In this document: positions 281-41,161 of the stretch, in pieces
How the letters are laid out: each line of letters starts with the position of its first letter
Numbering within the stretch: the stretch's first letter is position 1
Source: Bacteroidaceae bacterium
GTDB taxonomy: Bacteria > Bacteroidota > Bacteroidia > Bacteroidales > Bacteroidaceae
Assembly (NCBI GenBank): GCA_024697785.1
Contig: JAILEU010000103.1
Coordinates: forward strand, 1 to 43,337
DNA: 43,337 nt
Direction: 5' to 3'
Program-made: the position numbers and the translations under genes
The notes under the pieces: generated by a model
Databases searched by the model: none
What the model saw: only the letters and a program-made list of their open reading frames with translations
Told to the model about the DNA's origin: nothing

Positions 281-562
281 ATATAATTAGGAATTAGGAA
301 TTAGAAATTATAAAAATGAAAAATGAAGAATGAAGAATGAAAAATAAAATGTAAAAACTAAAACCAAAAACTAAAACTAAAACTTGAGAATTCTTGGAGC
401 AGCGAGCGTCAACAAACTCGTTTGATTGGCCGAGTCGCGACAAGAAAAGACGAAGTCAAATGTCCTGCATGCCATACACCAAAGCTATTCAAAAGTTTTA
501 GTTTTAGTTCAAAGTTTTAGTTCTAATTCCTAACCCAATCTTCAATCTTAAATTATCGAAAG
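281..562. repeat. Nested inverted word-repeat element between rsfS and the lipoprotein gene
   Basis: The gap holds, in order: TAGGAATTAG words (about 286-310), ATGAAGA/ATGAAAA words (315-350), AAAACT words (352-385), a GC-richer core (about 386-489), then AGTTTT words (490-530) and CTAATTCCTAA (521-534). The outer and inner words reappear on the right as reverse complements in mirrored order. Inside the core, CAAAC-TC-GTTTG at 413-424 is a small palindrome. The stretch 455-513 is the reverse complement of the duplicated sequence upstream of pyrG (23100-23256). No open frame of interest was seen. Confidence 0.8.
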
Positions 563-1333
563 ATGAAAAAGCTTTTTACAGCCCTGTTGGGCATGGCCTG
601 CATCGGCCTCATGACCGCCTGCATCCCCGGCGAAGAACCTGAAAACGGCGGAAACGACAATGACGGCACGGGCAAGGACAAGGACAAGACCGAGAACGTC
701 ACACCCGAACAGATGAAGGAGAAGGGCTACGCCCTGAAGTACACCTACTACAACCTGTACGGACAGACCCAGACGGCCATCTACTCCCGCAAAGGCGCCA
801 GCACCCGCCTAGACCTCATCTACATGACCGACGACGACGAGGGCCAGCCCTACGAAGCCCACCACGTCTATATCGAGACCAAGGATGCCAAAGGTAACTA
901 CACGGGCTACGGATATCCCAACGACGAGGACGAAGACGTCTGGACGGACGACGACTACCGCGCACGCCAGACAGCCAACAACGCCTTCGCCATGATTCTC
1001 GACATGAGCGAACACTTCCTGCAGCACGGCTACGAGGCCAAGGGCACCACCACCATCTGCGGCCGCACCTGCAACGTCTATGAAGGAACCTACACCCGCG
1101 GCAACTCCATGCTCGCCGTCTATGATGAGTTGGGGACCGAAGGCAAACACGGCTCCTTCGCCACATGGAACGGCTTCGCCCTCCGCGCCAAGTGCGACGT
1201 CTGGGGCTACGACGAGGAAACCGATGAACGCACCGTCATCGGCGAGCGCACCACCTTCGAGTGCAACGCCATTCAGATTGGCATACCTGACGACGCGTTC
1301 ACCAAGACTCTCGACGTTAAGTGGATTAAGTAA
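563..1333 (+). CDS. Secreted lipoprotein of unknown function, 256 aa
   Basis: The N-terminus MKKLFTALLGMACIGLMTAC is a lipoprotein signal peptide with lipobox LMTAC and acylated Cys20. The next residues are highly acidic and low in complexity (EEPENGG, then a D/K-rich stretch to about residue 45), which looks like a surface-export and tether segment of the Bacteroidota type. The remaining 210 residues are rich in Tyr, Thr, Asp and Glu, with predicted beta-type spacing. Two cysteines close together (ICGRTCNVYEG, near residues 170-175) could form a disulfide. No family was recognised. The ATG at 563 is the only start that gives a signal peptide. A strong terminator follows 54 bases after the stop, so it is probably a single-gene transcript. 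Confidence 0.82.
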   Translation: MKKLFTALLGMACIGLMTACIPGEEPENGGNDNDGTGKDKDKTENVTPEQMKEKGYALKYTYYNLYGQTQTAIYSRKGASTRLDLIYMTDDDEGQPYEAHHVYIETKDAKGNYTGYGYPNDEDEDVWTDDDYRARQTANNAFAMILDMSEHFLQHGYEAKGTTTICGRTCNVYEGTYTRGNSMLAVYDELGTEGKHGSFATWNGFALRAKCDVWGYDEETDERTVIGERTTFECNAIQIGIPDDAFTKTLDVKWIK

Positions 1334-1387
1334 CCCCACACTTTCCCCGCTGCCATAGCTTAAACAACTACCATAAACCCTGTTCAC

Positions 1388-1421
1388 CATCGATGGCCCG
1401 ATCGGGCCATCGATGTTTTTT
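1388..1421 (+). terminator. Strong intrinsic terminator after the lipoprotein gene
   Basis: A perfect palindrome occupies 1388-1415 (arms CATCGATGGCCCGA and its complement) and is followed directly by six T at 1416-1421. GC-rich stem plus T tract on the plus strand is the classic rho-independent layout. Confidence 0.9.
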
Positions 1422-1579
1422 AAAAAGATCAATCGCAATACGCCATAGATAGCATCGGGCAAAACAGCTTTTCCCCTAACTCCCCTCGTGCTTCCCGAAA
1501 AGCCAGAAGGGGCATCCTTGCGGATAACATATATAAATAGGTGCAAAATGACCGATTGAGGTGAAAAGAAGGAGAATTA

Positions 1580-1611
1580 TTTGCATTTCCCTTCGCCACA
1601 CCTTATCTTTG
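1580..1611 (+). promoter_or_regulatory. Bacteroidota-type promoter for the GH2 gene
   Basis: TTTG at 1580-1583 and TATCTTTG at 1604-1611 are separated by 20 bases, matching the -33/-7 consensus TTTG and TAnnTTTG of the Bacteroidota primary sigma factor. Transcription would begin about 10-15 bases before the ATG at 1630. This rules out the in-frame GTG at 1561 as start. Confidence 0.85.
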
Positions 1612-1629
1612 CAAGAAAAACCGTATACA

Positions 1630-3987
1630 ATGAAAACAAGACAAGCAATCACCACACTTTTGCTGGCCTCCCTGCTGGCAATGGCAGGCGCAAATGCCGC
1701 CGAAAGACAAATCTCCCGTAAGCAACTGTTTGACGACAACTGGCTGTTTGCCCTTGCCGACAACGCCACAGCTTGGCAAACCGTCAACCTGCCCCACGAC
1801 TGGAGCATCGCAGGTCCCTTCGATTCCGCCGCTCCCGCAGGCAACGATGGCGGCTATCTGCCCACAGGAAAAGGCACCTACCGCAAGACGTTCACACTCA
1901 GCGAGGCACAGCGCAAAGGGGTGCTGCGGCTCTACTTCGAGGGCGTCTATATGAACGCCGAGGTGTTTGTGAACGGACAGAAGGCGGGCGGACATCCCTA
2001 CGGCTACTCATCGTTCTTCGTTGACGTCACCCCCTACTGCCAGACGGGGCAGAACGAGGTGGAGGTGCGCGTCGATAACAGCCAGCAGCGGAACAGCCGC
2101 TGGTACAGCGGCTCAGGCATCTACCGCCACGTGTGGCTGCTCACCACGCCGAAGATCTATCTCGACGACTGGGGCCTCAACGTCCGCACAGCACAAAAGG
2201 GCAACGACTGGCAGCTTACCGTCAGCAGCCCCTTAGCCAGCTCAGCGGCAAACGAATCGCCTGCCGGACATTACCTCTTCCGCCACAAGCTCTACGATGC
2301 CGAGGGGAACGTCATTGCCGAGGCCGACGGCGCTGCCGACGCCCAGACGATGGCCGTCAGGCAGCCACGCCTCTGGTCGCCCGACGAACCTAACCTCTAT
2401 CGGCTGAAGACGCAGCTCGTGCTCGACGGAGAGGTCATCGACGAGCTGACGACACCCGTGGGCTTCCGCACCATCGACTACACGGCCGAGCGCGGACTGC
2501 GGCTGAACGGACAGCCCATCACCCTCAACGGCGGCTGTGTGCACCACGACAACGGCATCCTCGGTGCCTCGGCCTTCGACCGCGCCGAATACCGCAGGGT
2601 GGAGCGGCTGAAGGCAGCGGGCTTCAACGCCATCCGCACCTCCCACAACCCGCCGTCGCCCGCTTTCCTGACGGCTTGCGACGAGCTGGGACTACTCGTC
2701 ATCGACGAAGCCTTCGACGGCTGGCGCGACAAGAAGACCGAGCACGACTACGCCTCGCTGTTCGACGCCTGGTGGCAGGAGGACCTCCGCGCTATGGTGC
2801 TGCGCGACCGCAACCACCCCAGCATCTTCTGCTGGAGCACAGGCAACGAGGTCATCGAGCGCAAGCACATCGGCGTCATCAAGACCGCCCACGACCTCAC
2901 CACACTCTGCCACGAACTCGACCCCACACGCCCCGTCACCTCCGCCCTCTGCGCCTGGGACAGGGATTGGGAAATCTACGACCCCTTGGCAGCCGAGCAC
3001 GACATCGTCGGCTACAACTACATGATATTCAAAGCCGAGAGTGACCACGCACGTATTCCCGAACGGGTGATGGTGCAGACGGAGAGCTATCCCCGCGATG
3101 CCTATCGGAACTATCGTGCGGTACAGGATCACCCTTACGTCATCGGCGACTTCGTCTGGACGGCTATCGACTATCTGGGCGAGTCGGGCATCGGACGCTG
3201 GTACTACGAGGGCGACATCGACAACGAGCATTGGGTACACCCGCTCTTCCCATGGCATGCCTCCTATTGCGGCGACATCGACCTCATCGGGCAGCGCAAA
3301 GCCATCAGCCACTATCGCAGCATGCTCTGGAACGATACCGAACGCCTCTACATGGCTGTCCGCGAGCCCGACGGCTACTATGGCCGGAAGGTGAGGGAGA
3401 CGAACTGGGGCTCATGGCCTACGTTCGAGAGCTGGAGCTGGCCGGGGTGGGAAGGAAAGCCCATCGACGTGGAGGTTTACGCCCGCTACCCGCGCGTCAG
3501 ACTCTACTTGGACAATCAGCTGATAGGTGAGAAGGACGTTCCGGCCGACCGCCGCGTCAGCTTCAACCTGCCATACGCGGCAGGCACGCTGCGCGCCGAG
3601 GGAATCGAGAATGGTGACGTCAAGGAGAGCACCCTGCTGATGACGGCCGGCGACGCCCGCACCATCCGCCTCACAGCCGACCGCACCACGCTGGCGGCCG
3701 ACGGACAGGACCTCGCCTTCGTCACCGTGGAGCTGGTGGATGCAAAAGGCGTTGTTCATCCGCTTGCCGACAACCTGCTGACGGCCACCGTGAAGGGCCC
3801 TGCCAAGCTGGCAGCCTTCGGCAATGCCGATATCAAGGATACGGACAGCTATGCCGACTCCCAGCACCATGCCTGGAAGGGACGTGCCCTCATCGTCGTG
3901 CGCAGCACACAAAAGAAGGGCACCGTGACGCTCAGCGTCGGTGCCCAAGGACTGCGCACGGGTAATGTCACCCTGCGCTTCAAATAA
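1630..3987 (+). CDS. Secreted glycoside hydrolase family 2 (beta-galactosidase-like), 785 aa
   Basis: A GH2 retaining beta-glycosidase, predicted to be exported and to cleave terminal beta-galactosides or similar residues in the periplasm or at the surface. The start at 1630 gives the signal peptide MKTRQAITTLLLASLLAMAG and sits just after the promoter. Domains in order: jelly-roll sugar-binding domain (about 25-180; NLPHDWSI, GVYMNAEVFVNG), immunoglobulin-like domain (185-285), TIM barrel (290-580), a DUF4982-like domain (600-670), and a C-terminal GH2 C5-like domain (675-785). The acid/base is Glu407 in STGNEVIE. The probable nucleophile is Glu485 in VQTESYP. Substrate specificity cannot be read from sequence; beta-galactosidase is the family default. 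It stands alone rather than in a visible utilisation locus. Confidence 0.92.
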   Translation: MKTRQAITTLLLASLLAMAGANAAERQISRKQLFDDNWLFALADNATAWQTVNLPHDWSIAGPFDSAAPAGNDGGYLPTGKGTYRKTFTLSEAQRKGVLRLYFEGVYMNAEVFVNGQKAGGHPYGYSSFFVDVTPYCQTGQNEVEVRVDNSQQRNSRWYSGSGIYRHVWLLTTPKIYLDDWGLNVRTAQKGNDWQLTVSSPLASSAANESPAGHYLFRHKLYDAEGNVIAEADGAADAQTMAVRQPRLWSPDEPNLYRLKTQLVLDGEVIDELTTPVGFRTIDYTAERGLRLNGQPITLNGGCVHHDNGILGASAFDRAEYRRVERLKAAGFNAIRTSHNPPSPAFLTACDELGLLVIDEAFDGWRDKKTEHDYASLFDAWWQEDLRAMVLRDRNHPSIFCWSTGNEVIERKHIGVIKTAHDLTTLCHELDPTRPVTSALCAWDRDWEIYDPLAAEHDIVGYNYMIFKAESDHARIPERVMVQTESYPRDAYRNYRAVQDHPYVIGDFVWTAIDYLGESGIGRWYYEGDIDNEHWVHPLFPWHASYCGDIDLIGQRKAISHYRSMLWNDTERLYMAVREPDGYYGRKVRETNWGSWPTFESWSWPGWEGKPIDVEVYARYPRVRLYLDNQLIGEKDVPADRRVSFNLPYAAGTLRAEGIENGDVKESTLLMTAGDARTIRLTADRTTLAADGQDLAFVTVELVDAKGVVHPLADNLLTATVKGPAKLAAFGNADIKDTDSYADSQHHAWKGRALIVVRSTQKKGTVTLSVGAQGLRTGNVTLRFK

Positions 3988-4005
3988 GAGGACTTGTTGA
4001 ACTGA

Positions 4006-5274
4006 TTATTCCGTGTATTGCTCAATTAGGCGGATGAGGAGGGCGTTGAGCTGCTCCACCTCATAGTCGCCCACGGTGGCCTTGATGTGGGAGTTGCCCA
4101 CGCCGCTGTCGTCGGTGAGGAAGACGTAGGTGCCGCCGGTGGCGATGGCGAAGAAGCGCAGCATGAACTCGGTGTTCTTATCGACGCCGCTTGCCGCTAC
4201 GGGAATGAGGCGGATGCCCATCTGGGCACAGAGCTGGACGGACTTCTGCAGCGACTGGATGACCTTATCCTCGTGATGGGCGGGGGCATCGAGGATGAGG
4301 AAGGCGAGACGTGTGTGGTTAGCTTGCCACGAGAGTGATTGCAGCATCTGCTCAAGCGCCGTGTGAACGGCTTCGGGATAGTCGCCGCCGCCGTCGGCCT
4401 TCTGCTTACCCACGAAATCGGCTGTCGATTTCAGCTTTTCCGTGAAGTCGCTGTGGCGCGTGACGTACTCGTCGCCTTCGTCGCGATAGAACAGGGCTGC
4501 CGTACGCATCTTCACCGACGGACGGACTGACGAGGCTTTGCCAATGATGTCGACGAGGTCGCTCTTAAGGAAGTTGATTTCGTCCGTCATAGAGCCTGTG
4601 GCATCGACGATGAAGGCGATGTCGGCATGCATCTCGACTGGGGCATCGAGGTGGATGGGAAGGGCGTAGGTGTTGACGGTCGTCTGCTGGGCCGTGGAGT
4701 CCCAGGGACAGAGCAGCGGATGTCCCTCCATGAGCTTTCCGCCGACCGACACGCGGAGTGTCTGGGCGTCGGCCGTCTCCTTCTGAAAGAGCCCTACCCA
4801 GCAGTCAGCAAAGCCGTGATTGTCCGTCACTGTCCTCCACAGCGTAGCTTGCGACTCGCTCGTGCTGCGCAGCAATTCCACCTGCATGCCCACCATGGGA
4901 TTGCCGTCGGCATCGGTGACGCGTACGGCCACGCGGTTGTTCGTATAGAACCGCCAGTAGCCGCTCTTGTCGGCATAGCCCGCAGAGTCGGTGTCCTGCA
5001 TCAGGCGCGACCAGAACGCCCAGTGGTTGAGGTCGCACCATTCGCCGGCCGTCACGACGCCCGCCTGGGTGTTGCCGTTGCCGTTAGCGTCCCCGCTGCC
5101 ATCCGAGCCGCCGGGGAGGAAACCCATGCCGTCGCTTGCCTCTCCACTCAAGGCGTAGCCGTCGCCCTTACTGTATTCGGATGCACCTATCGGTTCGCCA
5201 TATTCCGAGCAGGAGGTGAAACACATCATAACCATCAGCGTCAGTGTGCTGAAGAAACTAAGGTACTTTTTCAT
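4006..5274 (-). CDS. vWA-domain lipoprotein, 422 aa
   Basis: A lipid-anchored protein with lipobox FTSC (Cys22) after a hydrophobic signal. A Gly/Ser/Asp-rich linker runs to about residue 70. Residues about 113-160 (RVAVRVTDADGNPMVGMQVEL) look like a carboxypeptidase-regulatory or Ig-like fold. A von Willebrand A domain begins near 218 with the metal-ion site DATGSM (Asp224, Ser228); later motifs are GGGDYPEAVHTAL and RLAFLILDAP. Family knowledge: such domains bind protein ligands through Mg2+. Role unknown; adhesion or a surface-assembly partner are possible. It is convergent with the GH2 gene, with an 18-base gap, and its upstream edge (5276-5296) is a GGAATTA word repeat. Confidence 0.87.
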   Translation of the reverse strand: MKKYLSFFSTLTLMVMMCFTSCSEYGEPIGASEYSKGDGYALSGEASDGMGFLPGGSDGSGDANGNGNTQAGVVTAGEWCDLNHWAFWSRLMQDTDSAGYADKSGYWRFYTNNRVAVRVTDADGNPMVGMQVELLRSTSESQATLWRTVTDNHGFADCWVGLFQKETADAQTLRVSVGGKLMEGHPLLCPWDSTAQQTTVNTYALPIHLDAPVEMHADIAFIVDATGSMTDEINFLKSDLVDIIGKASSVRPSVKMRTAALFYRDEGDEYVTRHSDFTEKLKSTADFVGKQKADGGGDYPEAVHTALEQMLQSLSWQANHTRLAFLILDAPAHHEDKVIQSLQKSVQLCAQMGIRLIPVAASGVDKNTEFMLRFFAIATGGTYVFLTDDSGVGNSHIKATVGDYEVEQLNALLIRLIEQYTE

Positions 5275-5373
5275 ATAATTAGGAATTAGGAATTATTTAT
5301 TGAAAATTCTCTATTGCACTAAACGCACGGATTCCCGGAATACTGCTTCCCCCGAAACGATGTTTAACTTTCC

Positions 5374-6186: not shown

Positions 6187-6198
6187 GATGTTTTTTTT

Positions 6199-6346
6199 AT
6201 TGTCTATTGTCTATAGTCGATAGTCTATTGCTTTTCGCGGCCTTTTGGCCGCCACGCCCCAAAGGGGCGTAAAGAGCGATTGACCATAGACTATTGACCA
6301 TTGACCATTGACTATTGACTATTGACCATTGACTATTGACCATTGA
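6199..6346. repeat. Double-hairpin word-repeat element, copy 1
   Basis: Left words of the type TATTGTCTATAGTC (6199-6230) flank a core at 6231-6279. The core has two GC hairpins: GCGGCC-TTTT-GGCCGC (6237-6252) and ACGCCCC-AAA-GGGGCGT (6254-6270). Right words GACCATTGACTATT follow (6280-6346). The core is nearly identical, in reverse complement, to 16896-16942. It may also act as a transcription barrier between the two GT2 genes. Confidence 0.88.
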
Positions 6347-6361
6347 CCCCATAATAGACCA

Positions 6362-7441: not shown

Positions 7442-7450
7442 AAAATTATA

Positions 7451-7548
7451 TGGGTTAGGGGTTAGAGGTTAGGGGTTAGGGGTTAGTGTTCAGAGGACGT
7501 GTTCGTTAAACGTTAAACATTAAACGTTAAACATTAATTATTAACTAT
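7451..7548. repeat. GGGTTAG words and GTTAAAC words between glycan genes
   Basis: GGGGTTAGAGGTTA-type words fill 7451-7487. Then comes the 16-mer GACGTGTTCGTTAAAC (7496-7511, reverse complement of the recurring GTTTAACGAACACGTC) and ACGTTAAACATTAAACG words to about 7535. The block lies immediately 3' of the acyltransferase gene. Confidence 0.75.
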
Positions 7549-7551
7549 GAA

Positions 7552-8721
7552 TTATGATTTAACCAGCCGTTGTCCCGTCAGGACATTCGCCACGGAGGGC
7601 AGGAAGCGTTGCAGGAGCATGAAGATGAGGTGGCAGATGAGGTACGTCAGCGCTGCCCCGGCCACGAACAGGAGTATCTGCATCCACGCCGAGCGGAAGG
7701 GCAGGGACATGACGGCCCACATGACGGCACTCGCCACGACAACCATGTGTGAGCAATAGACGAAGAAGCTGCTGCCTGCCAGCCGGCCGGAGGGGCGGAT
7801 GACGCCTTTCCCGATGAGCAGAGAGACGGTGCCCAAGCTGAACATCACGGCGATGATGATGAACAGCCGGACAGCCAGTTGGAACAGCTGCCGATCACCA
7901 TCCCACAGGAAGGGGATGAGAGCCAGGCCGACGAGAAACAGCAGGCCGACGGGCGCCGCCACTTTCCGGAACGACTGGGCGAAGCTCTTCCCCTTGATGG
8001 CGAACAGACTGCCCCATGCAAAGAAGAACGTCGCCTTGATTCCGAACCCCGGGACGGGAATCCAGACATCCGCCAGAAAGAGCGCACCCAGGACGGCTAC
8101 TGTCGCGGCGCCCGTCTTCCTGACCAGCCAATGGATGACAGGCGTGAAGAGAACGACAACCATCAGGTCGCGGACAAACCACAGAGGGGTGTCCATCGGC
8201 TGTCCGGAGGGCATGCACCAGCCCAGCAGATTGGTGGTGCTGCCCGCCACCCCGTCGAACAGCGTCCTGTCCCAGAAGAGCCTGAGCAGGCCGCGCTCGC
8301 GGATGACGCCCCACAGGTTGTCCGCCGCCATCGGCGTGCCCTTGAGGAGCGAGCCTCCAAGACGCGTCAGGGGGAAGGCGGCCAGGGCGATAAAGTTCCA
8401 GAGCACGTAGGGCACCAGCAGCGTCCGTACACGTCTTGTCATCTTGCGTTTCCAGACCCCGCTGTCCCAGCTCTCAAGTCCTTGGAAGAACAGGTATCCG
8501 GAGATGAAGAAGAACGTCGGCACGGCCACAGGGCACAACGTCTTACACAGGCAGATGACAAAGACGTCAAACGCCCCGCCGCCGAGCGCCCACTGCCGTC
8601 CGGTATAGAACAGCTGGACGTGGAGGCAGACGACCATGAAAGCCATCACCGGCCTCAGCCAGTCGATGGTCGCCGACTGCACCCGCCGCCAGTCCGTGCC
8701 CGCCATGTCTGATCGTGTCAT
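7552..8721 (-). CDS. Membrane acyltransferase 3 family protein (OafA/YrhL type), 389 aa
   Basis: An integral membrane O-acyltransferase, expected to acetylate or otherwise acylate a sugar of the surface polysaccharide. About ten hydrophobic segments are visible. Family motifs: IDWLRPVMAFMVVCLHVQ near residue 18-35, with the conserved Arg and His, and PTFFFISGYLFFQG near residue 70. The ATG at 8721 overlaps the stop of glf in an ATGA arrangement, so translation is probably coupled to UDP-galactopyranose mutase. This suggests, by context only, that the acylated sugar belongs to a galactofuranose-containing glycan. Confidence 0.9.
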   Translation of the reverse strand: MTRSDMAGTDWRRVQSATIDWLRPVMAFMVVCLHVQLFYTGRQWALGGGAFDVFVICLCKTLCPVAVPTFFFISGYLFFQGLESWDSGVWKRKMTRRVRTLLVPYVLWNFIALAAFPLTRLGGSLLKGTPMAADNLWGVIRERGLLRLFWDRTLFDGVAGSTTNLLGWCMPSGQPMDTPLWFVRDLMVVVLFTPVIHWLVRKTGAATVAVLGALFLADVWIPVPGFGIKATFFFAWGSLFAIKGKSFAQSFRKVAAPVGLLFLVGLALIPFLWDGDRQLFQLAVRLFIIIAVMFSLGTVSLLIGKGVIRPSGRLAGSSFFVYCSHMVVVASAVMWAVMSLPFRSAWMQILLFVAGAALTYLICHLIFMLLQRFLPSVANVLTGQRLVKS

Positions 8722-9815: not shown

Positions 9816-9830
9816 ATTTTGGGGTTTCAA

Positions 9831-10037
9831 CTTTCAACTTTAACGAACACGTCTGGCGCCTTCGGCGCAATTGATAATTGATAATTGAAAATTGATAATT
9901 ATCCATTGACCATTGTCAATTGTCAATTAACGAAGTTATCATGGTCGTTAAACATTAAACGTTAAACCAATTATCAATTACCAATTATCAATTATCAATT
10001 GCGTGAGGTTTTGCGCCTCGGCGTAAAACCTCACGCC
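9831..10037. repeat. Nested inverted word-repeat element overlapping the licD 3' end
   Basis: In order: TTTAACGAACACGTC (9839-9853), hairpin GCGCC-TTC-GGCGC (9856-9868), TTGATAATTGA words (to about 9900), mixed core with GTTAAAC words (9901-9966), then ATTATCAATT words (9967-10000). A perfect 12-bp stem follows, GCGTGAGGTTTT at 10001-10012 paired with 10026-10037. The last hairpin and the words lie inside the 3' end of the neighbouring licD gene and supply its final codons and stop. Confidence 0.82.
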
Positions 10038-11825: not shown

Positions 11826-12010
11826 TGAAGAATGAAAAATGAAGATTTGGTTTAACGTTTAAGGTTTAATGTTTAACGAACACGTCCTCTGATTTCTGAT
11901 TTCTTACCTCTTACTTCTGACCTCTGGCTTCACTTCCTGCCGCAAGGTCGTTAAACATTAAACGTTAAACGTTAAACGATAATTATCAATTGCGTCTTCG
12001 GCGCTGGTTA
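11826..12010. repeat. Word-repeat block upstream of the small gene
   Basis: ATGAAAAATGAAG words lead into GTTTAACGTTTAAGG words (11850-11880) containing GTTTAACGAACACGTC (11871-11886). A TCTGATTTCTGA / CTCTTACTTCTGA core follows (11887-11948), then CGTTAAACATTAAACG words (11949-11977), and AATTATCAATTG with TCTTCGGCGC (11980-12006). The GTTTAAC words on either side of the core are inverted. The rest of 11679-12148 holds only the hairpin copy A, A-rich sequence and the promoter below. Confidence 0.78.
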
Positions 12011-16868: not shown

Positions 16869-16986
16869 GGTCAATAGTCAATAGTCTATGGTCAATCGCT
16901 CTTTACGCCCCTGGGGCGTAGCGGCCAAAAGGCCGCAAAAAGCAATAGACTATCGACTATAGACTATCGACCATCGACCATAGACC
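16869..16986. repeat. Double-hairpin word-repeat element, copy 2 (inverted)
   Basis: GTCAATAGTC words (16869-16895), core 16896-16942 with hairpins ACGCCCC-TGGGGCGT (overlapping) and GCGGCC-AAAA-GGCCGC (16921-16936), then ATAGACTATCGAC words (16943-16986). It is the reverse complement of 6199-6346 apart from a few changes. It fills the whole gap between glnN and carA. Confidence 0.88.
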
Positions 16987-18083: not shown

Positions 18084-18284
18084 ATTTCGTTTAACGTTTA
18101 ACGACCATGCGGCAGGAATATGAAAATGAAAAATGAAGAATGAAGAATAAATTGCTTTGTAATCGGAACGCTGCATACGGGACATTTAATTTTTCATTTT
18201 TCATTCTTCATTCTTAATTGCGCCGAAGGCGCCAGACGTGTTCGTTAAACATTAAACGTTAAACGTTAAACAATATATTTGTTT
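18084..18284. repeat. Doubly nested inverted word-repeat between carA and carB
   Basis: Outer left words GTTTAACGTTTAACG (18091-18104), then GCGGCAGGAAT, inner left words ATGAAAAATGAAGAATG (18121-18148), a 41-base core, inner right words TTTTTCATTCTTCATT (18189-18215). Next come the hairpin GCGCC-GAA-GGCGC (18220-18232), GACGTGTTCGTTAAAC (18235-18250) and outer right words CGTTAAACATTAAACG (to 18270). Both word pairs are inverted about the same centre. The segment around 18098-18114 matches 11938-11958 in reverse complement. Confidence 0.88.
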
Positions 18285-23051: not shown

Positions 23052-23310
23052 AGCGACAGGCGCCTTTGGCGCAATTGATAGTTTATGAAATTAGAACTAA
23101 AACTTTGAACTAAAACTAAAACTTTTGAATAGCTTTGGTGTGCGACATGCAGGACATTTCTCAAGTTTTGGTTTTAGGTTTTGGTTTTAGGTTTTCTTAT
23201 TTGAACTAAAACTAAAACTTTTGAATAGCTTTGGTGTGCGACATGCAGGACATTTCTCAAGTTTTAGTTTTAAGTTTTGGTTTTAGTTTTTCATTAAAAT
23301 AATCTTCAAT
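23052..23310. repeat. Tandemly duplicated word-core element upstream of pyrG
   Basis: After the hairpin-and-word module at 23059-23078 (GCGCC-TTT-GGCGC then AATTGAT), two direct copies with a 96-base period lie at about 23100-23195 and 23196-23290. Each reads GAACTAAAACT words, a core from TAGCTTTGG to CATTTCTC, then AGTTTTGGTTTT words. The copy at 455-513 is the reverse complement of the same unit. The block fills the gap before pyrG. Confidence 0.9.
23200..23233 (+). promoter_or_regulatory. Promoter-like pair in the repeat core upstream of pyrG
   Basis: TTTG at 23200-23203 and TAGCTTTG at 23226-23233 are 22 bases apart. The first copy has the same pair at 23104-23107 and 23130-23137, also 22 apart. 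The -7 element is canonical; the spacer is slightly long for the Bacteroidota consensus (19-21). pyrG has no better promoter in view, so one or both copies may drive it. Confidence 0.45.
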
Positions 23311-23323: not shown

Positions 23324-25018
23324 ATGGCTAAGTTTATTTTTGTGACGGGTGGCGTGGTCTCCGGCCTGGGCAAGGGGATTACGGCCTCCAGCGTGGCGCT
23401 GCTGATGAAAGCGCATGGCTACAAGGTGTTCATGCAGAAGTTCGACCCTTACATCAACGTCGATCCCGGCACCATGAGCCCCTACCAACACGGCGAGGTG
23501 TTCGTCACCGCCGACGGATGCGAAACCGACCTCGACCTCGGACACTACGAGCGCTTCATCGACGAGGAGCTCAACTACACCTCCAACATCACCATGGGCC
23601 GCGTGCTGAAAAACGTCATCGACAAGGAGCGGCGCGGCGACTACCTCGGCGCCACCGTGCAGATTGTGCCCCACGTGACGGACGAGATTAAGCATAAGAT
23701 TCACGAGGCAGCATCATCGACCGGTGCCGACATCGTCATCACCGAGATTGGCGGCACGGTGGGCGACATCGAGTCAGAAGCTTTTCTTGAAGCGCTCCGC
23801 CAGATTCGCATCGAGCATGCCCCTGCCGACACCCTCTTCATCCACACCACCCTGCTGCCTGCCCTCTACGGCTCGGACGAGCTGAAGACCAAGCCCACGC
23901 AGCACTCCGTCATCGACCTGCGCGGGGCGGGCATACAGCCCGACATCATCGTCTGCCGCACCCCCGTCATGCCGCCCCACGACGTCATGGCCAAGATAGG
24001 CCTCTTCTGCTCCGTCCCCACCGACCACGTCATCGCCAGCGTCGATGTCAGGAACATCTACGAGGTGCCCCTGCTCTACCACCAGCAGCACATCGACGAC
24101 ATCGTGCTCCGCGGTCTCGGCCTCACGCCGTCGCCCCAGCCCCGCCTGCAGCCATGGACCAAGCTTGTCGATACGGTGAACAACCTCAGCGGCACCATCC
24201 GCATAGCCCTTGTCGGCAAATATACCCATCTGCCCGATGCTTACATCAGCGTCACCGAGGCCCTGCATCATGCGGGCTACCACTTCGGCAAGCAGGTGGT
24301 GGTCGATTACATCGATGCCGAGACGCTGGAGCCATCTGTTAGTCTCAACCGACGAACGAAGCAAGAGCAGAACAAACTTGTTTGCTCTGCCTTGCAAGGA
24401 GGAGGAAGAGCGGAGCTCGATTCTGAAGTCTGCCAGTCTAATCTCAGTGCCTACGACGGCATCATTGTGCCGGGCGGCTTCGGCATCCGCGGCACCGAGG
24501 GCATGATAGCTGCCTGCCGCTACGCCCGCGAGCACGGCGTGCCCTTCCTCGGGCTCTGCTTAGGCATGCAGGTGGCGACCATTGAGTTTGCCCGCCACGT
24601 CTGTGGGCTTGCCGACGCCAGCTCCACCGAGTTCAACCCCGCCACGCCCCATCCCGTCATCTGCCTGATGGAGGAGCAGAAGGGCGTCACCCACATGGGC
24701 GGTACGCTGCGCCTCGGCAACTACCCCTGCCAGCTGCAGGCCGGCACCCTTGCCCGCCGTGCCTACGGCGAAGAGAACATCCTTGAGCGCCACCGCCATC
24801 GCTACGAGTTCAACAACGCCTACCGCCGTCCGCTTGAAGCCGCCGGCCTGTGCATAGCCGGCACCAACACCGCCCTCGACCTCGTGGAAATCATCGAGCT
24901 GCCCGGTCATCCCCACTACGTAGCCGTCCAGTTCCATCCCGAGTTCCGCAGCCGCCCCACGCGGCCTCATCCACTCTTCGTCTCGTTCGTCCGCGCCGCT
25001 GGGAGACTCAATCGTTAA
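23324..25018 (+). CDS. pyrG: CTP synthase, 564 aa, with an unusual insertion
   Basis: PyrG makes CTP from UTP, ATP and glutamine. Seen: the synthase domain with FVTGGVVSGLGKGITASS (P-loop), QKFDPYINVDPGTMSPYQHG and EIGGTVGDIE; then a class I GATase with GIIVPGGFGIRGTEGM, nucleophile Cys412 in GLCLGMQ, and VQFHPEF near the end. The family is usually 530-545 residues. Residues about 337-375, between DYIDAETLE and AYDGIIVPGG, replace what is normally a linker of about 10 residues. The inserted DNA is repeat-like (separate entry). The active-site residues are intact, so the enzyme is probably functional. Confidence 0.95.
   Translation: MAKFIFVTGGVVSGLGKGITASSVALLMKAHGYKVFMQKFDPYINVDPGTMSPYQHGEVFVTADGCETDLDLGHYERFIDEELNYTSNITMGRVLKNVIDKERRGDYLGATVQIVPHVTDEIKHKIHEAASSTGADIVITEIGGTVGDIESEAFLEALRQIRIEHAPADTLFIHTTLLPALYGSDELKTKPTQHSVIDLRGAGIQPDIIVCRTPVMPPHDVMAKIGLFCSVPTDHVIASVDVRNIYEVPLLYHQQHIDDIVLRGLGLTPSPQPRLQPWTKLVDTVNNLSGTIRIALVGKYTHLPDAYISVTEALHHAGYHFGKQVVVDYIDAETLEPSVSLNRRTKQEQNKLVCSALQGGGRAELDSEVCQSNLSAYDGIIVPGGFGIRGTEGMIAACRYAREHGVPFLGLCLGMQVATIEFARHVCGLADASSTEFNPATPHPVICLMEEQKGVTHMGGTLRLGNYPCQLQAGTLARRAYGEENILERHRHRYEFNNAYRRPLEAAGLCIAGTNTALDLVEIIELPGHPHYVAVQFHPEFRSRPTRPHPLFVSFVRAAGRLNR
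24332..24448 (+). repeat. Repeat-derived in-frame insertion within pyrG
   Basis: These 117 bases encode the extra linker. They contain an imperfect hairpin at 24361-24395 (GCAAG, bulged A, GCAGA, mismatch, CAAAC around TT). They are edged by TCTGTTAGTCT (24336-24346) and the similar TCTGCCAGTCT (24429-24439). TCTGTTAGTCT is the exact reverse complement of AGACTAACAGA in the word repeat at 29423-29433. AGCAGA and CTCTGCC in the hairpin also occur in the 66-bp element at 11704-11769. Confidence 0.7.
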
Positions 25019-25028
25019 TTGAAAATTG

Positions 25029-25320
25029 ATTCAAGTTTCGCAAGTAAGAATTCGTACCAGAGAGGAGCGCCCCGAAGGGGCAGAGAGCACATAGCCCAGG
25101 GCAACGCCCTGGGTACAAACGGCCAAAGTAACTTTCGCCCTGAAGGGGCAAAAGCGTTCAATATTAAATTCTTTTGCCCCTTCAGGGCGCGAAAATGACA
25201 GGAGCCCGAATAACCACAGGGCGTTGCCCTGGGCTGGGTGCTTCTGGCCTTTCAGGCCGCAAAATGACAGGTGCCCGAATAACCACAGGGCGCCAGCCCG
25301 GTCCTGTGTGCTACGGGTTT
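25029..25320. repeat. Long palindromic element, decayed copy
   Basis: Begins ATTCAAGTTTCGCAAGT (25029-25045), the left end of the element at 42386-42698, and shares 40 identical bases with it (25105-25144 and 42467-42506). Contains paired CCCAGGGCAACGCCCTGGG- and GCCCTGAAGGGG-type blocks on both sides. The right terminal repeat is missing. A segment AAATGACAGG...CCCGAATAACCACAGGGCG occurs twice in tandem (about 25193 and 25261). Confidence 0.85.
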
Positions 25321-25341
25321 TCTAGCGATAGCGGGGTTTTT

Positions 25342-25465
25342 CTTTTGCTCTGGTATCATCCAGTATGGATGATGTTATGGCTGTAGGCTTTTATCTGTAA
25401 GCTGGCTTACAAGGAAAAGCCTACAGCCATAATATCTGAGACAACGTCTCTGAACAGAGCAAAAG
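25342..25465. other. Nested hairpins, possible structured RNA or fold-back element
   Basis: Outer arms CTTTTGCTCTG (25342-25352) and CAGAGCAAAAG (25455-25465) are perfectly complementary. Inside are ATCATCCA-GTA-TGGATGAT, the 18-bp arms TTATGGCTGTAGGCTTTT (25375-25392) with its complement about 22 bases further on, an apical GTAAG/CTTAC, and GAGAC-AAC-GTCTC. It lies between the decayed palindromic element and the esterase promoter. No protein frame fits. Confidence 0.6.
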
Positions 25466-25532
25466 GGTTTTGCTGGTTTTGGTTCATGGAAACACAGGTT
25501 TCTGCAAGTGAACCTAAAAATGCTCAAATAAA

Positions 25533-29379: not shown

Positions 29380-29550
29380 GTTTAACGTTTAATGTTTAAT
29401 GTTTAACGAACACGTCCTCGAAGACTAACAGACTGACAAACTGACAGATAATGCGTATCAACGAAGCGGTCCACGGAACATTCATCTGATAGTCTGAAAG
29501 TCTGTAAGTCTGATAGTCTAAAGGGATTATCAATTATCCATTATCAATTA
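29380..29550. repeat. Word-core-word element between sdhA and sdhB
   Basis: GTTTAACGTTTAATG words with GTTTAACGAACACGTC at 29401-29416. Then AGACTAACAGACTGAC words (29423-29448), a core of about 40 bases, and CTGATAGTCTGAAAGTCTG words (29486-29521), which are the inverted counterpart. It ends with ATTATCAATTATCC words that run into the sdhA stop codon. Confidence 0.82.
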
Positions 29551-32362: not shown

Positions 32363-32462
32363 CATAATTTTATTTAAATAACCCGCATTTTTACAAAAAA
32401 AACGCAGTTTCTTGGATGTTTGATGTTTTTACCCTACCTTCGCAGAAAAATCCAGACAGACA

Positions 32463-33047: not shown

Positions 33048-33065
33048 CGCCCATCGCCCCCCAAA

Positions 33066-33155: not shown

Positions 33156-33164
33156 CTAAAAAGT

Positions 33165-34193: not shown

Positions 34194-34226
34194 ACAGACA
34201 AACACTACCCCACCACCGCCGCAGCG

Positions 34227-36557: not shown

Positions 36558-36576
36558 GGTGAGAGGGGGGAGGGGG

Positions 36577-37944
36577 TTATCGGTATATCTTCAGCGTATG
36601 TCCTGCGGTGATGCGGTCGCTGCGCAGGCCGTTCCACTTCTTAATCTGTGCGACGCTGACGCCGTACTTCCGGGCGATGGAGCCCAGCGACTCACCGGCG
36701 CGGATCTTGTGGGTTATCAGCCCTCCCTTGCCGCCTGATGAGCGGGAGGGGGTGACGGCACGGGGCTCGACGGTCTTCTGCGGGGGGAAGAACTTGTCGT
36801 GCTGATAGGCATAGACAGAGTCGCCTTTGTCGATGAACACGGCTATCTTGTCCATGGGCAGGCGCAGCGAGTAGGGCTCGAAGGCGCCGGGGATGAGGTC
36901 TTCCTTGTACTGCGGGTTGAGGGCACGCAGGGCTTCCATGTCGATGTCGCACACGGCGGCAATCTGCTCGAGATAGACGTTGCGGTGGAGCATCAGCGTG
37001 TCGTTGGCCAACGGCAGCGTCGTCTCCATGGGACAGATGCCATGCTCGGCATAGTAGGTCATGATGTAGTTGGCGGCGATGAAGGCGGGCACATAGCCGC
37101 GCGTCTCGCGGGGTAGGTTCCAGTAGATGTCCCAGAAGTCGAGCCTTCCGCCACCCGAGCGGTGGATGGCTTTGTTGACGTTGCCGGCACCGCAGTTGTA
37201 GGCGGCGATGGCCAGCGTCCAGTCGCCCAGCAGGTCGTACATGGCGCGCAGATGGTGGGCTGCCGCCCACGTGGCCTTGATGGGGTCACGACGCTCATCG
37301 ACCAGCGAGTTGAGCTTCAGACCGTATGACTTGCCCGTGGGATACATGAACTGCCACATGCCGGTGGCACCGGCACGCGACACGGCGATGGGGTTCATGG
37401 CCGACTCGATGACGGGCAGGTACTTCAGCTCCTGGGGCACGCCGTAGAAGTCGAGCGCCTGCTCGATGACGGGCGAGTAGAACTGCATGACGCCCAGCAT
37501 GTACGACACGAGGGCACGGCTGCGGGTGGCATAGCGGTCGATGACCGCACGCACGGGCTGGTTATAGACCATCGGCACAATGGTGGGCAGGTTGTCCAGC
37601 CGCTCCATATAGACCGAGTCGGGAAAGTCGGGGTTCGTGCCGCTGCCCACACAGAGGCTGTCGTAGAGCAGGTACTTGCGCGAATGCCAGTCGTGCAGCA
37701 GGCTGTCGAGGTTGACGGACATGCTCTCGAGGACGGCCATCGAGTCGTCGCGGATGGTGCGCCACGTGTCGGACAGCGGGTGCTCACGGAACTCCTTGTA
37801 GGGGTTTTCAGCCTCCAGCCACACGGTATCGACGATGACGATGGTGTCCGTCTTGTGGGCGACGGTTCGCTTCTTCCGGTCCCACACGGGCTGCCACGGC
37901 AGCAGGGTCAGCAAGGCAAAGAGGAGTATGAGCGGTTTTTTCAT
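36577..37944 (-). CDS. mltD: MltD-like lytic transglycosylase with LysM, 455 aa
   Basis: Cleaves peptidoglycan glycan strands in the periplasm. Seen: an N-terminal hydrophobic signal (MKKPLILLFALLTLLPW), an SLT domain (about 160-300) with catalytic Glu180 in LPVIESAMNP, GATGMWQFMYPTG and AIAAYNCGAGNVNKAI, then a linker and one C-terminal LysM (about 408-455; HKIRAGESLGSIARKYGVS). No lipobox Cys, so probably soluble or signal-anchored. It starts 6 bases after the DUF5683 stop, indicating cotranscription. The second LysM seen in many MltD proteins is not obvious, though VYLEQIAAVCDIDMEALRAL near residue 325 may be a diverged one. Confidence 0.93.
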   Translation of the reverse strand: MKKPLILLFALLTLLPWQPVWDRKKRTVAHKTDTIVIVDTVWLEAENPYKEFREHPLSDTWRTIRDDSMAVLESMSVNLDSLLHDWHSRKYLLYDSLCVGSGTNPDFPDSVYMERLDNLPTIVPMVYNQPVRAVIDRYATRSRALVSYMLGVMQFYSPVIEQALDFYGVPQELKYLPVIESAMNPIAVSRAGATGMWQFMYPTGKSYGLKLNSLVDERRDPIKATWAAAHHLRAMYDLLGDWTLAIAAYNCGAGNVNKAIHRSGGGRLDFWDIYWNLPRETRGYVPAFIAANYIMTYYAEHGICPMETTLPLANDTLMLHRNVYLEQIAAVCDIDMEALRALNPQYKEDLIPGAFEPYSLRLPMDKIAVFIDKGDSVYAYQHDKFFPPQKTVEPRAVTPSRSSGGKGGLITHKIRAGESLGSIARKYGVSVAQIKKWNGLRSDRITAGHTLKIYR

Positions 37945-37950
37945 GGGGTG

Positions 37951-38658
37951 TCAGAACGATAGGCTGCACTTCACGCCCAGCGAGCGCGCATGCAGGGAAT
38001 AGTAATCGGTAGCCGGGATGACGGAGGGACGGATGTGGAGGCCCAGGTCCTCCGAGATGTCGAAGTGGGCAAGCTCGGCATCGACGTACGCATCGATGAT
38101 GGAGATGACATAGACGCCGATGAAGCTGAAGATGCTCAGGTCGCGATAGCGGCGGTAGTTGTCCTTGCGGTTCTTGAACACGCGCTTCAGGTACGCCTCG
38201 TTGGCCGTGACGTTGTAGTTTGGCGGCAGGAAGTCGGCATAGCTGGCTGTGGCCGGGTCATCGTCCATGATGTCGAGGTAGGCCTGCGAGTAGTCGCGAT
38301 ACATCTGGTTGTTCCACGTCAGGGCGTAAGCACAGCCGAGGAATCCGCCATAGACGATGGGCAGCTTCCAGTACTTGCGGTTGTAAATCTGTCCGCCGCC
38401 TGGGAAGACGATGCCCATCCACGTGGCACGGGCAGGGTCGGGCGACCATGCTTCCTTACCGGCAAGCGAGTCGAGGGCAGCAACGGCGATGCTGTCGCCG
38501 CCAATAAGCATCAGGCTGTCGGTCGTAGCCTGTACAAGGCTGTCGGCACGGGCATAGAGGACAGAGTCGGTGGTTATCGACTGGGCATGCAGAGCCGTAG
38601 TGACCGTCACCGACAGCCACAACAGCGCCACCACAATTCTACCTCCACGCTTCCTCAT
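37951..38658 (-). CDS. DUF5683-family membrane-associated protein, 235 aa
   Basis: Recognised by the block PGGGQIYNRKYWKLPIVYGG (about 90-109) and the C-terminal IIDAYVDAELAHFDIS. A signal peptide is present (ALLWLSVTVTTALHA). Two hydrophobic segments (about 105-117 and 178-192) suggest membrane insertion. Function is unknown. In Bacteroidota this family is often found beside parAB, a transglycosylase and an RSH gene, exactly as here, so a role at the interface of envelope growth and chromosome segregation is a contextual guess. Long repeat array upstream. Confidence 0.85.
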   Translation of the reverse strand: MRKRGGRIVVALLWLSVTVTTALHAQSITTDSVLYARADSLVQATTDSLMLIGGDSIAVAALDSLAGKEAWSPDPARATWMGIVFPGGGQIYNRKYWKLPIVYGGFLGCAYALTWNNQMYRDYSQAYLDIMDDDPATASYADFLPPNYNVTANEAYLKRVFKNRKDNYRRYRDLSIFSFIGVYVISIIDAYVDAELAHFDISEDLGLHIRPSVIPATDYYSLHARSLGVKCSLSF

Positions 38659-38702
38659 CGCACTCTGGATTTCTTTCTGTACTACTTGCTTTTTACTTTC
38701 TT

Positions 38703-38890
38703 TACTACGAATTACACGAATTATACGAATTATTTTTGAACACGGATTACACGGATTGAACGGATTTATTACCGCTTCGCGGTTTTTTTGGAGTCTGCTT
38801 CGCAGAGAAATGTTTCAAAAATTAATTTCAAAATTAAACAAAATTTGGCATTTGACATTCGGCGTGCGAAGCCTTCGCCGCAGGGAATAA
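38703..38890. repeat. TACGAATTA and CGGATT words with small hairpins
   Basis: CGAATTACACGAATTATACG words (38705-38734), then ACGGATTACACGGATTGAACG (38744-38764), the hairpin ACCGC-TTC-GCGGT followed by seven T (38771-38789, terminator-like on the plus strand), and CTGC-TTC-GCAG (38797-38807). The remainder to 38890 is A/T-rich without a frame. Confidence 0.65.
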
Positions 38891-39120
38891 TTTGTAAAAT
38901 TCGTAGTCAAAAAAGTAGGGTATGCAAAGCTATTTTTCTTAACTCTTAACTAGTTAAAATTAGTATAATTCGTAAAATTCGTAGTTCAAAAAAGTAGGCT
39001 GTATGCAAAGCAATTTTTCTTAACTCTTAACTCTTAATTCTTAACTAGTTAAAATTCGTAGTCAAAAAAATAGTCCGTATGCAAAGCTATTTTTCTTAAC
39101 TCTTAATTCTTAATTCTTAA
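38891..39120. repeat. Three-unit tandem array between parB and DUF5683
   Basis: Three imperfect units of about 65-95 bases: AAAATTCGTAGTCAAAAAAGTA, then TATGCAAAGCTATTTTTC, then TTAACTCTTAATTCTTAACTAG words. On the minus strand each core gives TAGCTTTG or TTGCTTTG (38925-38932, 39006-39013, 39082-39089), resembling the Bacteroidota -7 box and pointing toward the DUF5683 gene. The array abuts the parB stop codon. Confidence 0.85.
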
Positions 39121-40008
39121 CTAAGTAAAGCTCTTATTTATCTTGTCCAGGAGGGCGATGATGCCCTCCAGTTCCTTTTCGTTCTTGAAGGGGATGGAGA
39201 TCTTGCCCTTGCCCTTTGCCCCCACCGACAGCTTCACGTCGGTGTGGAAAAACGTTGCCAGATGTTTCTGCAGCACATCGTAGTCGGGGTCGGACGTACG
39301 GCTGCGGCTGCCTTTTTCAGCCTTGCCCTTGGCCGTCTGCTCCTTCACCATCTCCTCTACCTTGCGGACAGAGTAGCCTCCCTCGCGAATCTGGCGGAAC
39401 AGCCGCAGCTGCTCGCCGAGGTCATCGACGGCCAGCAGGGCACGGGCGTGGCCCATGTCGATCTCCTTGTTCTTCAGCGCCACCTGGATCTCACCGGGCA
39501 GCTTGAACAGACGCAGATAGTTGGCGATGGTGGCACGGTTTTTGCCGACACGTTCGCTCAGGTCGTCCTGCGTTATCTGCAGCTCGTCAATCAGTCCCTT
39601 GTAGGCAAGGGCTATCTCCATAGGGTTGAGGTCCGAACGCTGTATGTTCTCCACCAGCGCCAGCTCCAGCACACTCTGGTCCTCTACCTCTTTTATATAA
39701 GCCGGTATGGAGGTGAGCCCTGCCAGTCCCGACGCACGCCAACGGCGTTCGCCCGCCACAATCTGATAACTGTCGTCGCCCGTCCGGCGCAGCGTCACCG
39801 GCTGGATGACGCCATACGTGCGGATGGACTCAGCCAGCTCGTGCAGCGCCTCCTCGTCGAAGTCCTTGCGCGGCTGGTCGGGGTTGGGGGTAATTTGTGC
39901 GAGGGGAATCTCGCTGATGACGGACGACCCCGCCGTCGTCACCTCGTCGGTGGCGATGAGGGCGTCAAGCCCACGCCCAAGGCCTGTATGTTTCTTATCT
40001 TTTGCCAT
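39121..40008 (-). CDS. parB: Chromosome-partitioning protein ParB, 295 aa
   Basis: ParB binds parS sites, spreads as a CTP-dependent clamp and works with ParA to segregate origins. Seen: the N-terminal GLGRGLDALI motif, the ParB/Spo0J nuclease-like domain (IPLAQITPNPDQPRKDFDEEAL, VAGERRWRAS, LVENIQRSDLNPMEIA), an HTH domain (LSERVGKNRATIANYLRLFKL; about 150-170) and a C-terminal dimerisation region. Normal length. It ends with TAG exactly where the TTAACTC array begins. No parS-like TGTTTCACGTGAAACA palindrome was noticed in the window. Confidence 0.96.
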   Translation of the reverse strand: MAKDKKHTGLGRGLDALIATDEVTTAGSSVISEIPLAQITPNPDQPRKDFDEEALHELAESIRTYGVIQPVTLRRTGDDSYQIVAGERRWRASGLAGLTSIPAYIKEVEDQSVLELALVENIQRSDLNPMEIALAYKGLIDELQITQDDLSERVGKNRATIANYLRLFKLPGEIQVALKNKEIDMGHARALLAVDDLGEQLRLFRQIREGGYSVRKVEEMVKEQTAKGKAEKGSRSRTSDPDYDVLQKHLATFFHTDVKLSVGAKGKGKISIPFKNEKELEGIIALLDKINKSFT

Positions 40009-40082
40009 ACTCTTTTATTTACTTCGTTAATGGATAACGGGTAATGGATAATTATCAATTGTCAATTATCAATTTTTAATTG

Positions 40083-40850
40083 TCAATTGCGCGGAGCGCT
40101 AAGTATCTCCTGTGCCAGCTGCAGGTAGCGCCTGGCACCCTGCGAATCGGCGTCGTAGAGGATGGCGGGGACACCGTGGCTGGGGGCCTCGCTCAGACGC
40201 ACATTGCGCGGGATGACCGTCTCGAACACCAGGTTCTGGAAGTGACGGCGCACCTCGTCCAGCACCTGGTTGCTGAGGTTCAGGCGGCTGTCGTACATCG
40301 TCAGCAGGAAGCCTTCGATGCCTAATGAGGGATTGAGACGAAGCTTAATCAACTTAATGGTGTTCAGCAGCTTGCTGATACCCTCCAGCGCGAAGTATTC
40401 GCATTGGACGGGGATGATGACCGTGTCAGCCGCCACCAGCGAGTTGACGGTGATGAGCCCCAGCGAGGGCGAGCAGTCGATGAGGATGAAGTCGTATGTG
40501 TCCTTGATAGGGCTGATGGCGTCCTTCAGCTTCGTCTCTCGCTCCGAGAGGTTCAGCATCTCTATCTCAGCGCCCACCAGGTCGATGTGCGAGGGGATGA
40601 TGTCGAGCCCCTCGATGTCGGTATGGACGACAGCCTCGTCGGCCTTACACTTGCCGATGATACATTCATAGACGGTCTTCTCGGCCTTGCGCACATCCAC
40701 GCCCAGCCCCGACGAGGCGTTGGCCTGCGGGTCGGCGTCAACGAGCAGCACTTTCTTCTCGAGCGTGGCCAGCGAGGCAGCCAGGTTGATGGCTGTGGTG
40801 GTCTTGCCCACACCGCCTTTCTGATTGGCTAATGCCATTATTTTTCCCAT
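40083..40850 (-). CDS. parA: Chromosome-partitioning ATPase ParA (Soj), 255 aa
   Basis: A DNA-binding ATPase that moves ParB-parS complexes. Seen: deviant Walker A NQKGGVGKTTTAINLA (about 8-23), VLLVDADPQANASSGLG (Walker A'), and FILIDCSPSLGLITVNSL (Walker B). Length is standard for chromosomal ParA. It ends CCG-CGC-AAT-TGA, the last six bases being the first of a TTGACAATT word block that fills the gap to parB (40009-40082). A weak minus-strand -7-like TACCTTCG lies at 40882-40889. Confidence 0.96.
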   Translation of the reverse strand: MGKIMALANQKGGVGKTTTAINLAASLATLEKKVLLVDADPQANASSGLGVDVRKAEKTVYECIIGKCKADEAVVHTDIEGLDIIPSHIDLVGAEIEMLNLSERETKLKDAISPIKDTYDFILIDCSPSLGLITVNSLVAADTVIIPVQCEYFALEGISKLLNTIKLIKLRLNPSLGIEGFLLTMYDSRLNLSNQVLDEVRRHFQNLVFETVIPRNVRLSEAPSHGVPAILYDADSQGARRYLQLAQEILSAPRN

Positions 40851-41028
40851 AACAATTCGTTTCGTACATTAATCCAAGCTGCGAAGGTAGTGAAAAACTC
40901 CGCTACCCCCCGCAGAAAATGTCCTAAACTTTTATAAAATGTGGAAAAAACCCTCCATTTGTGGAAAACTCCCCCCTCTCCCGGCGCCTTGGCGCAATTG
41001 AAAATAGAAAAATGATAAAGATAATGTT

Positions 41029-41161
41029 AGGAGTTCAGGAGTACAGGAGTTCAGGAGTTCAGGAGTACAGGAGTTCAGGAGTACAGACAATAGTGCTGCT
41101 AACGAAAAACTGCATGCAAAGGTATCGTCTGAACTCCTGTACTCCTGAACTCCTGAACTCC
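41029..41161. repeat. AGGAGTTC/AGGAGTAC word array inverted about a 42-bp core
   Basis: AGGAGTTCAGGAGTACAGG words run through 41029-41086, a core of 42 bases through 41128, and CTGAACTCCTGTACTCC words through 41161. The two sides are inverted. The core holds CAAAGGTA (41117-41124), the reverse complement of TACCTTTG, pointing toward parA. A GGCGCC-TTGGCGCAATTG module lies just before (40983-41000). The rest of 40851-41210 shows no frame. Confidence 0.85.

Follow-up and report, generated by a model that had tools for sequence, protein, structure and literature searches.

Intervening sequences of rRNA and arrays of short intergenic words are the closest described counterparts of the repeats considered here. 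In the available text of PMC4990558, the former are selfish sequences bounded by complementary ends, some of which carry an S23 gene, and which are cut by RNase III; their mobility is proposed there but unproven, and the S23 proteins, also termed intervening-sequence proteins (IVPs), are without known function. The short tandemly repeated repetitive (STRR) heptamers of cyanobacteria are intergenic 7-bp words that can form hairpins and that have no known function in the accessible part of PMC2670836, and the available portion of PMC4679880 reports TAACTGA repeats from Beggiatoaceae, cyanobacteria and Bacteroidetes without an evident mechanism of transfer. For Porphyromonas gingivalis, the partial text of PMC4596501 describes a miniature inverted-repeat transposable element (MITE) with a minisatellite, that is, tandem repeats within a miniature inverted-repeat element. 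Here, we consider nine intergenic elements on a 43-kb contig of a Bacteroidaceae bacterium (JAILEU010000103.1, 43,337 nucleotides, analysed in full and called the window below), each consisting of an array of a short word, a core and the same word inverted. These elements are probably miniature, gene-less members of an intergenic class of IVP mobile elements related to rRNA intervening sequences.

Repetitive extragenic palindromic (REP) sequences and REP doublets forming hairpins (REPINs) are short intergenic hairpin repeats that occur in many copies, together with a REP-associated tyrosine transposase (RAYT, a Y1 transposase). The small dispersed repeats of Nostoc are reportedly tiny units embedded in heptamer arrays, as Elhai and others are said to have described in 2008, and to our knowledge no partner protein has been named for them.

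Plan and vocabulary of the elements

The window has a GC content of 58% and carries ordinary housekeeping genes; it contains no tRNA and no Rfam family at gathering score. Its nine elements are as follows.

352 to 530, reverse strand: AAAACT element; arms at about 353-384 and 494-529, core at about 385-493 with a second dispersed repeat inside
6199 to 6348, forward strand: GACTATT element; left arm at about 6198-6230, hairpin core at about 6227-6278, right arm at 6279-6348
9869 to 10000, unstranded: AATTGAT/AATTATC arms enclosing a nested GTTAAAC array
11850 to 11982, unstranded: GTTTAAC element; the core ends carry AACACGTCC and CCTGCCGCAAGGT boxes
16869 to 16986, reverse strand: second GACTATT element, with the core of the element at 6199-6348, between the genes for glutamine synthetase III and carA
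18084 to 18284, unstranded: ATGAAGA element (18123-18219) nested within a GTTTAAC element, in the carA-carB gap
23085 to 23292, forward strand: AAAACT element of the guaA-pyrG gap; the 96-bp unit occurs twice in tandem
29423 to 29523, unstranded: AGTCTGAT element in the sdhB-sdhA gap
41029 to 41161, unstranded: AGGAGTTC element, whose word also lies beside the IVP genes of loci L184 and L197, with a variant form at L185

The common plan had been proposed in the initial annotation, and it is borne out in all nine gaps: when the left half of each element was aligned with the reverse complement of the right half, the score exceeded those of all 300 dinucleotide-preserving shuffles. The folded RNAs are also unusually stable, with z-scores from -3.4 to -11.8 (60 shuffles per element). 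A core size of 35-70 bp, part of the same proposal, does not hold for the element at 352-530, where the core measures about 110 bp because another dispersed repeat sits in it.

The genome to which the window belongs is an assembly of 201 contigs that is 84.6% complete. It was sampled as the window plus 20 further stretches (414,579 bp and 184 gaps of at least 40 bp, with genes called by a simple longest-open reading frame (ORF) rule). Gaps under 3 kb in this sample held 178 arrays, as against 0-1 in five shuffles, a density that is overestimated because the 20 stretches were chosen from contigs that had already matched in earlier searches. Neighbouring arrays were inverted in 32 of 159 pairs, compared with a mean of 6 and a maximum of 13 when words were permuted among gaps 300 times. 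Pairs in the same orientation were raised as well (21 of 159; permuted mean 5.8, maximum 14). Words do differ among gaps, as first noted, but they are not arbitrary: a few recur often in the sample (for instance AAACGTT in 27 arrays, AATTATC in 16 and AACTCTT in 13), and several carry a recurring core of their own. The AAAACT element has matches at E <= 1e-8 on 16 contigs of its own genome and is found in five of 19 genomes of the genus, a comparison set that includes the own genome; the double AAAACT element had no match in the plasmid collection queried. The window elements are dispersed families, and their words form a limited shared vocabulary, not a local one.

Inverted word arrays flank IVP genes

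The family PF05635 (23S rRNA-intervening-sequence protein, IVP/S23; TIGR02436, four helix bundle protein) is present in 18 of the 19 genus genomes. The own genome has two matches, on contigs C155 and C150 only, and none falls within the window. For 58 genus loci (60 taken, those with an ORF of at least 100 aa kept), the 150-bp flanks on the two sides of the IVP gene were compared. Inverted word arrays with a score of at least 13 surround the gene at 52 of the 58 loci, versus 12 of 257 control genes taken from the array-rich own-genome sample, and one of 48 controls of similar size (300-600 bp). The median score was 22 for true flanks and 7.5 for mismatched ones, and the matched scores summed to 1234 where 2000 permutations gave at most 606.5. 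The words themselves vary from locus to locus.

Outside the genus, PF05635 matches above the cut-off were obtained for 83 of 119 genomes at the order level and for 113 of 148 at the phylum level. Among the best matches to the hidden Markov model, 30 at each level, two cut loci were dropped; arms at or above the 99th percentile of mismatched pairs were found at 21 of the 28 loci left at the order level and at 14 of the 30 at the phylum level. From named plasmids, 14 of 23 records with IVP genes were fetched and 13 compared, and arms above the mismatched 95th percentile were found for six (Nostoc twice, Calothrix, Geminocystis, Anabaena and Riemerella); short arms are discernible by eye at plasmid loci L305, L308, L310, L312 and L314. 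Where both neighbours, called by longest ORF, are co-oriented, the IVP gene lies on their strand in 43 of 46 genus cases and in 46 of 49 cases from outside the genus, with orthologues retained in the count.

Two further observations concern the genes themselves. The IVP genes L308, L307 and L311 lie inside clusters of CRISPR (clustered regularly interspaced short palindromic repeats) genes on cyanobacterial plasmids, in a cas10/Cmr3-family gap and a cas6/cas4 gap. In addition, some longer ORFs of about 200-300 aa (for instance L195) form a class of their own that matches PF05635 weakly and mainly over its first 75 positions.

The initial annotation had suggested a RAYT or a reverse transcriptase as a partner gene. 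A partner was found, but it is a different protein, PF05635; neither RAYT (Y1_Tnp, PF01797) nor the reverse transcriptase RVT_1 (PF00078), the mark of a retroelement or diversity-generating retroelement, has any match in the own genome at 84.6% completeness.

Words, IVP relatedness and a shared end

Across different loci, the similarity of words tracks the similarity of the IVPs (rho 0.24, reached in 0 of 1000 permutations). In the IVP tree, words of the GTCAAC-/GACTATT-type, the AGGAGTTC-type and the ATGAAGA-type fall in separate supported clades. Loci L184 and L231 have the same neighbours on both sides, IVPs that are 27% identical and different words; some gaps were thus hit by unrelated IVP elements. 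The suggestion that an active process copies local words finds no support in these results, since the vocabulary is shared, several words are tied to recurring cores, and at IVP genes words track IVP relatedness.

One family of miniatures shares its end with a full element of the own genome. Locus L189 is an IVP element with GACTATT-type arms and a ATTGCTTTTAGCGGC...GCCGCCACGCCC end. The core of the GACTATT element at 6199-6348 is homologous to the 5' end of L189, and both window GACTATT elements bear this end, with a score of 23.5 against shuffled maxima of 15.0 and 16.5 (40 shuffles) and with L189 ranking first of the 58 loci. In addition, 58 distinct words stand beside IVP genes in the other genomes of the genus, and 19 of them are present in gaps of the own genome as tandem dimers, where shuffled words gave a mean of 4.6 and a maximum of 10.

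Presence and absence at individual sites

At several sites on Nostoc plasmids, filled and unfilled forms can be compared directly. At Site 1, an IVP insert of 420-602 bp is present in three plasmids and a 3-bp gap in five, with near-identical flanking genes. At Site 2, a 505-bp IVP insert is present in one plasmid, and six have 0-3 bp in its place. Site 3 is the gap that follows a TraM-like gene: L303 and L318 have an IVP element here, the gap measures 52 bp in L316 and L317, and L319 has other repeats. In L315 (pNsp_c of Nostoc ATCC 53789), the same gap holds 260 bp of gene-less inverted arrays with the related word GGGAAC, whose arms score above 300 of 300 shuffles and whose left junction is nearly that of the IVP element. 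Arms plus gene thus behave as one unit, both present or both missing between near-identical neighbours.

At the site of L189, none of 11 relatives that have both neighbours carries a listed IVP. The gap is 46-53 bp in G001, G017, G016 and G015 and longer in G008, G011, G012 and G014; it holds an AGTCTG-type array in G003 and an inverted AGTTTTTG miniature in G006. In G009, the gap has a stretch resembling the left arm in the own genome but lacks the gene, which suggests either decay of a shared insertion or insertion of an arm only. The arm supplies the final codons of the upstream gene in the own genome, G009 and G003, and in G001 and G017 the encoded protein ends in IEE.

Gaps orthologous to those of the window are, in genomes of the same genus, often short or occupied by different elements with other words, in line with the gain and loss of whole units that had been anticipated. 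The carA-carB gap is short and without arrays in G009, G003, G014 and G016, and the gap between glutamine synthetase III and carA in G009 holds, as read by eye, a AGTCTGAT-type element instead. The AAAACT element is missing from the guaA-pyrG gap in G009, G003, G001 and G017, with a TTAAGAG array there in G003. In the sdhB-sdhA gap of G001 and G017, GTTTAAC arms surround a small PF05635 (IVP) gene. Arrays also differ in length by whole units, as evidenced by 9-bp and 47-bp differences between G001 and G017.

Possible mechanism and alternative explanations

The reading of the window elements as miniature IVP elements is based on four observations: arms surround IVP genes, words follow IVP relatedness, arms and gene are gained or lost jointly where the neighbouring genes are near-identical, and the GACTATT miniature has an end in common with an own-genome IVP element. 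In the full form, tandem words of 6-9 bp make up one arm, a single small PF05635 gene comes next, and the words return inverted in the other arm. The IVP protein may bind the repeated words, either as RNA or as a single-stranded hairpin, and such binding of its own words would explain why each family keeps its own word. Binding could serve the copying of full and miniature elements, in cis and in trans, into transcribed gaps. Given that the own genome has no reverse transcriptase match, we slightly favour copying by way of host replication or of single-stranded DNA. In transcripts, the arms would form a long hairpin that is probably cut by RNase III, by analogy with rRNA intervening sequences, and this cutting would limit damage to the host operon.

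A broader proposal is possible, though we offer it tentatively: that PF05635 proteins are mobility factors of a wide class of minimal elements with tandem words as their ends. Besides rRNA intervening sequences, this class would comprise the intergenic elements found in Bacteroidota and cyanobacteria and miniatures without a gene, those of the window among them. The solved structure nearest to IVP by sequence is 2gsc, a homopentamer of four-helix bundles according to the available text of PMC4990558. Speculatively, a five-fold ring could recognise successive copies of a word; this would account both for the tandem-array ends and for the tendency of each IVP clade to have its own word.

Several observations weigh against the miniature IVP reading. 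Six of the 58 genus IVP genes scored below 13, 16 of the 30 phylum-level loci fell under the 99th percentile, and only six of the 13 plasmid genes passed the 95th, with L309 lacking arms and L307 having direct arrays. The orientation bias may reflect selection, and orthologous loci are not independent. Cores of the AAAACT, AGTCTG, AGGAGTTC, ATGAAGA and GTTTAAC families, five of the six tested, have no homology to IVP elements beyond that of shuffles. The density of arrays is 2.8 per 100 kb in six IVP-rich phylum genomes and 2.0 in five IVP-free ones; samples of five of ten genus genomes were free of arrays, including those of G012, G015 and G002 with 8, 8 and 3 PF05635 matches; and the own genome has many miniatures for the two IVP genes found. 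The right junction of L315 is unlike that of the IVP element. A target-site duplication, TTCTA(A/G), is possible at Nostoc Site 1, none is clear at Sites 2 and 3, and none is proven. Finally, the arms of orthologous IVP elements show no concerted change.

Some of these points favour a different account, in which an unrelated transposase mobilises the miniatures, these being several independent families of REP-like or MITE-like kind, and the plan is shared with IVP elements through the same machinery or by convergence. The lack of IVP core homology in five of the six families tested, and an array density that does not follow IVP copy number in the genomes sampled, speak for this account. It is nonetheless unlikely, given that words follow IVP relatedness, that the GACTATT end is common to window elements and an IVP element, and that gene-less inverted arrays with a related word occupy a Nostoc IVP site; the own genome also has no Y1 transposase or reverse transcriptase, other transposases not having been searched.

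Less probable still is that the elements are regulatory RNA hairpins kept by vertical descent, acting as terminators, mRNA stabilisers or coupling devices as proposed for cyanobacterial repeats. The strong predicted hairpins and the intergenic position, often between genes on the same strand, are compatible with such a role, and for 7-bp repeats a part in transcript stability or translational coupling is put forward in the accessible part of PMC2670836. However, orthologous gaps lack the elements or hold other words, which argues against a conserved role at the site; the elements may have a secondary regulatory use.

That slippage and fold-back copying build inverted arrays in place from local words, as was first supposed, is very improbable: variable array lengths between G001 and G017 and the excess of same-orientation pairs speak for it, and slippage is a good account of array length, but it is largely refuted by several unfilled sites that have no words at all, words are genome-wide and several come with cores, and left and right arms of one element are no more alike than those compared across orthologues (22.0 versus 21.7, p 0.54, ten orthologous IVP pairs), a want of homogenisation that counts against fold-back copying.

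Other repeats and features of the window

The neighbouring unpaired arrays at 7452 to 7544 (unstranded), GGGTTAG and then GTTAAAC with GGACGTGTTCG, are probably half elements. The dispersed repeat inserted in the AAAACT core, at about 394-458 of the window, has the form GGAGCAGCGAG...CCGAGTCGCGAC...GACGAAG. The GGAGCAGCGAG...CCGAGTCGCGAC repeat also occurs at L158 (reverse complement, about 7668-7746) and at L162 (about 7324 and about 8026); it explains indels of 58 and 69 bp that distinguish G001 from G017. An extra stretch somewhat like it lies within the coding sequence of carA in G009.

At 38887-39129 of the window, there are about three copies of a 76-bp unit with the words TTAACTC and AAAATTCGT and a ATAGCTTTGCATACG-like core on the reverse strand, and without clear inverted arms. 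Pieces reading AGCTTTG and GGACATTT are common to this region and to the cores at about 23124-23165, 18149-18184 and 41086-41130, which belong to different word families. We take the AGCTTTG of these cores to resemble the Bacteroidetes -7 promoter box. The gap after pyrG (25019-25485) holds several GC-rich hairpin-like repeats (CGCCCTGAAGGGGC and similar) that are unlike the word arrays. For the CTP synthase encoded upstream of it (23324-25018), the closest named relatives are from two Bacteroidetes and one Bacteroidaceae metagenome-assembled genomes (68-69% identical), followed mainly by Bacilli and Clostridia, which suggests transfer of the gene between phyla.

Comparison with known systems

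The elements resemble the 23S rRNA intervening sequences of Coxiella and Leptospira, as these are described in partially available sources, in their complementary ends and long stem, in the PF05635-family gene that some carry in the loop, and in their sporadic presence. Both the arm scores and RNA folding indicate terminal inverted repeats able to form one stem, and a PF05635 gene occupies the loop in the full forms but not in the window miniatures. The intervening sequences are inserted within a helix of 23S rRNA; by contrast, the elements considered here lie between protein genes, their arms are made of tandem words, and there are many gene-less miniatures.

They differ from REP and REPIN sequences in having arms that are word arrays, and Y1_Tnp has no match in the own genome (84.6% complete). 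Ends shared with an autonomous element, as expected of a MITE, were found for the GACTATT family with L189 only, and the IVP is not a known transposase; the likeness to the P. gingivalis MITE is one of description, from a partially available source.

With the cyanobacterial STRR, the arrays of the window and the own-genome sample share the arrangement of about 7-bp words in intergenic tandem arrays, a likeness in plan. In open-licence literature, mostly titles and beginnings of abstracts, S23 or four-helix-bundle genes are not joined to tandem words or intergenic mobility, which is weak evidence. The available parts of the STRR and TAACTGA papers (PMC2670836, PMC4679880) name no IVP/S23 partner; in the present data, arrays of short words stand on either side of IVP genes in plasmids of cyanobacteria. 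Two puzzles are thereby joined, that of common PF05635 proteins without known function and that of intergenic heptamer arrays without known function or transfer mechanism: some word arrays would be the ends of elements whose gene is IVP, and puzzling bacterial repeats gain a likely and testable origin.

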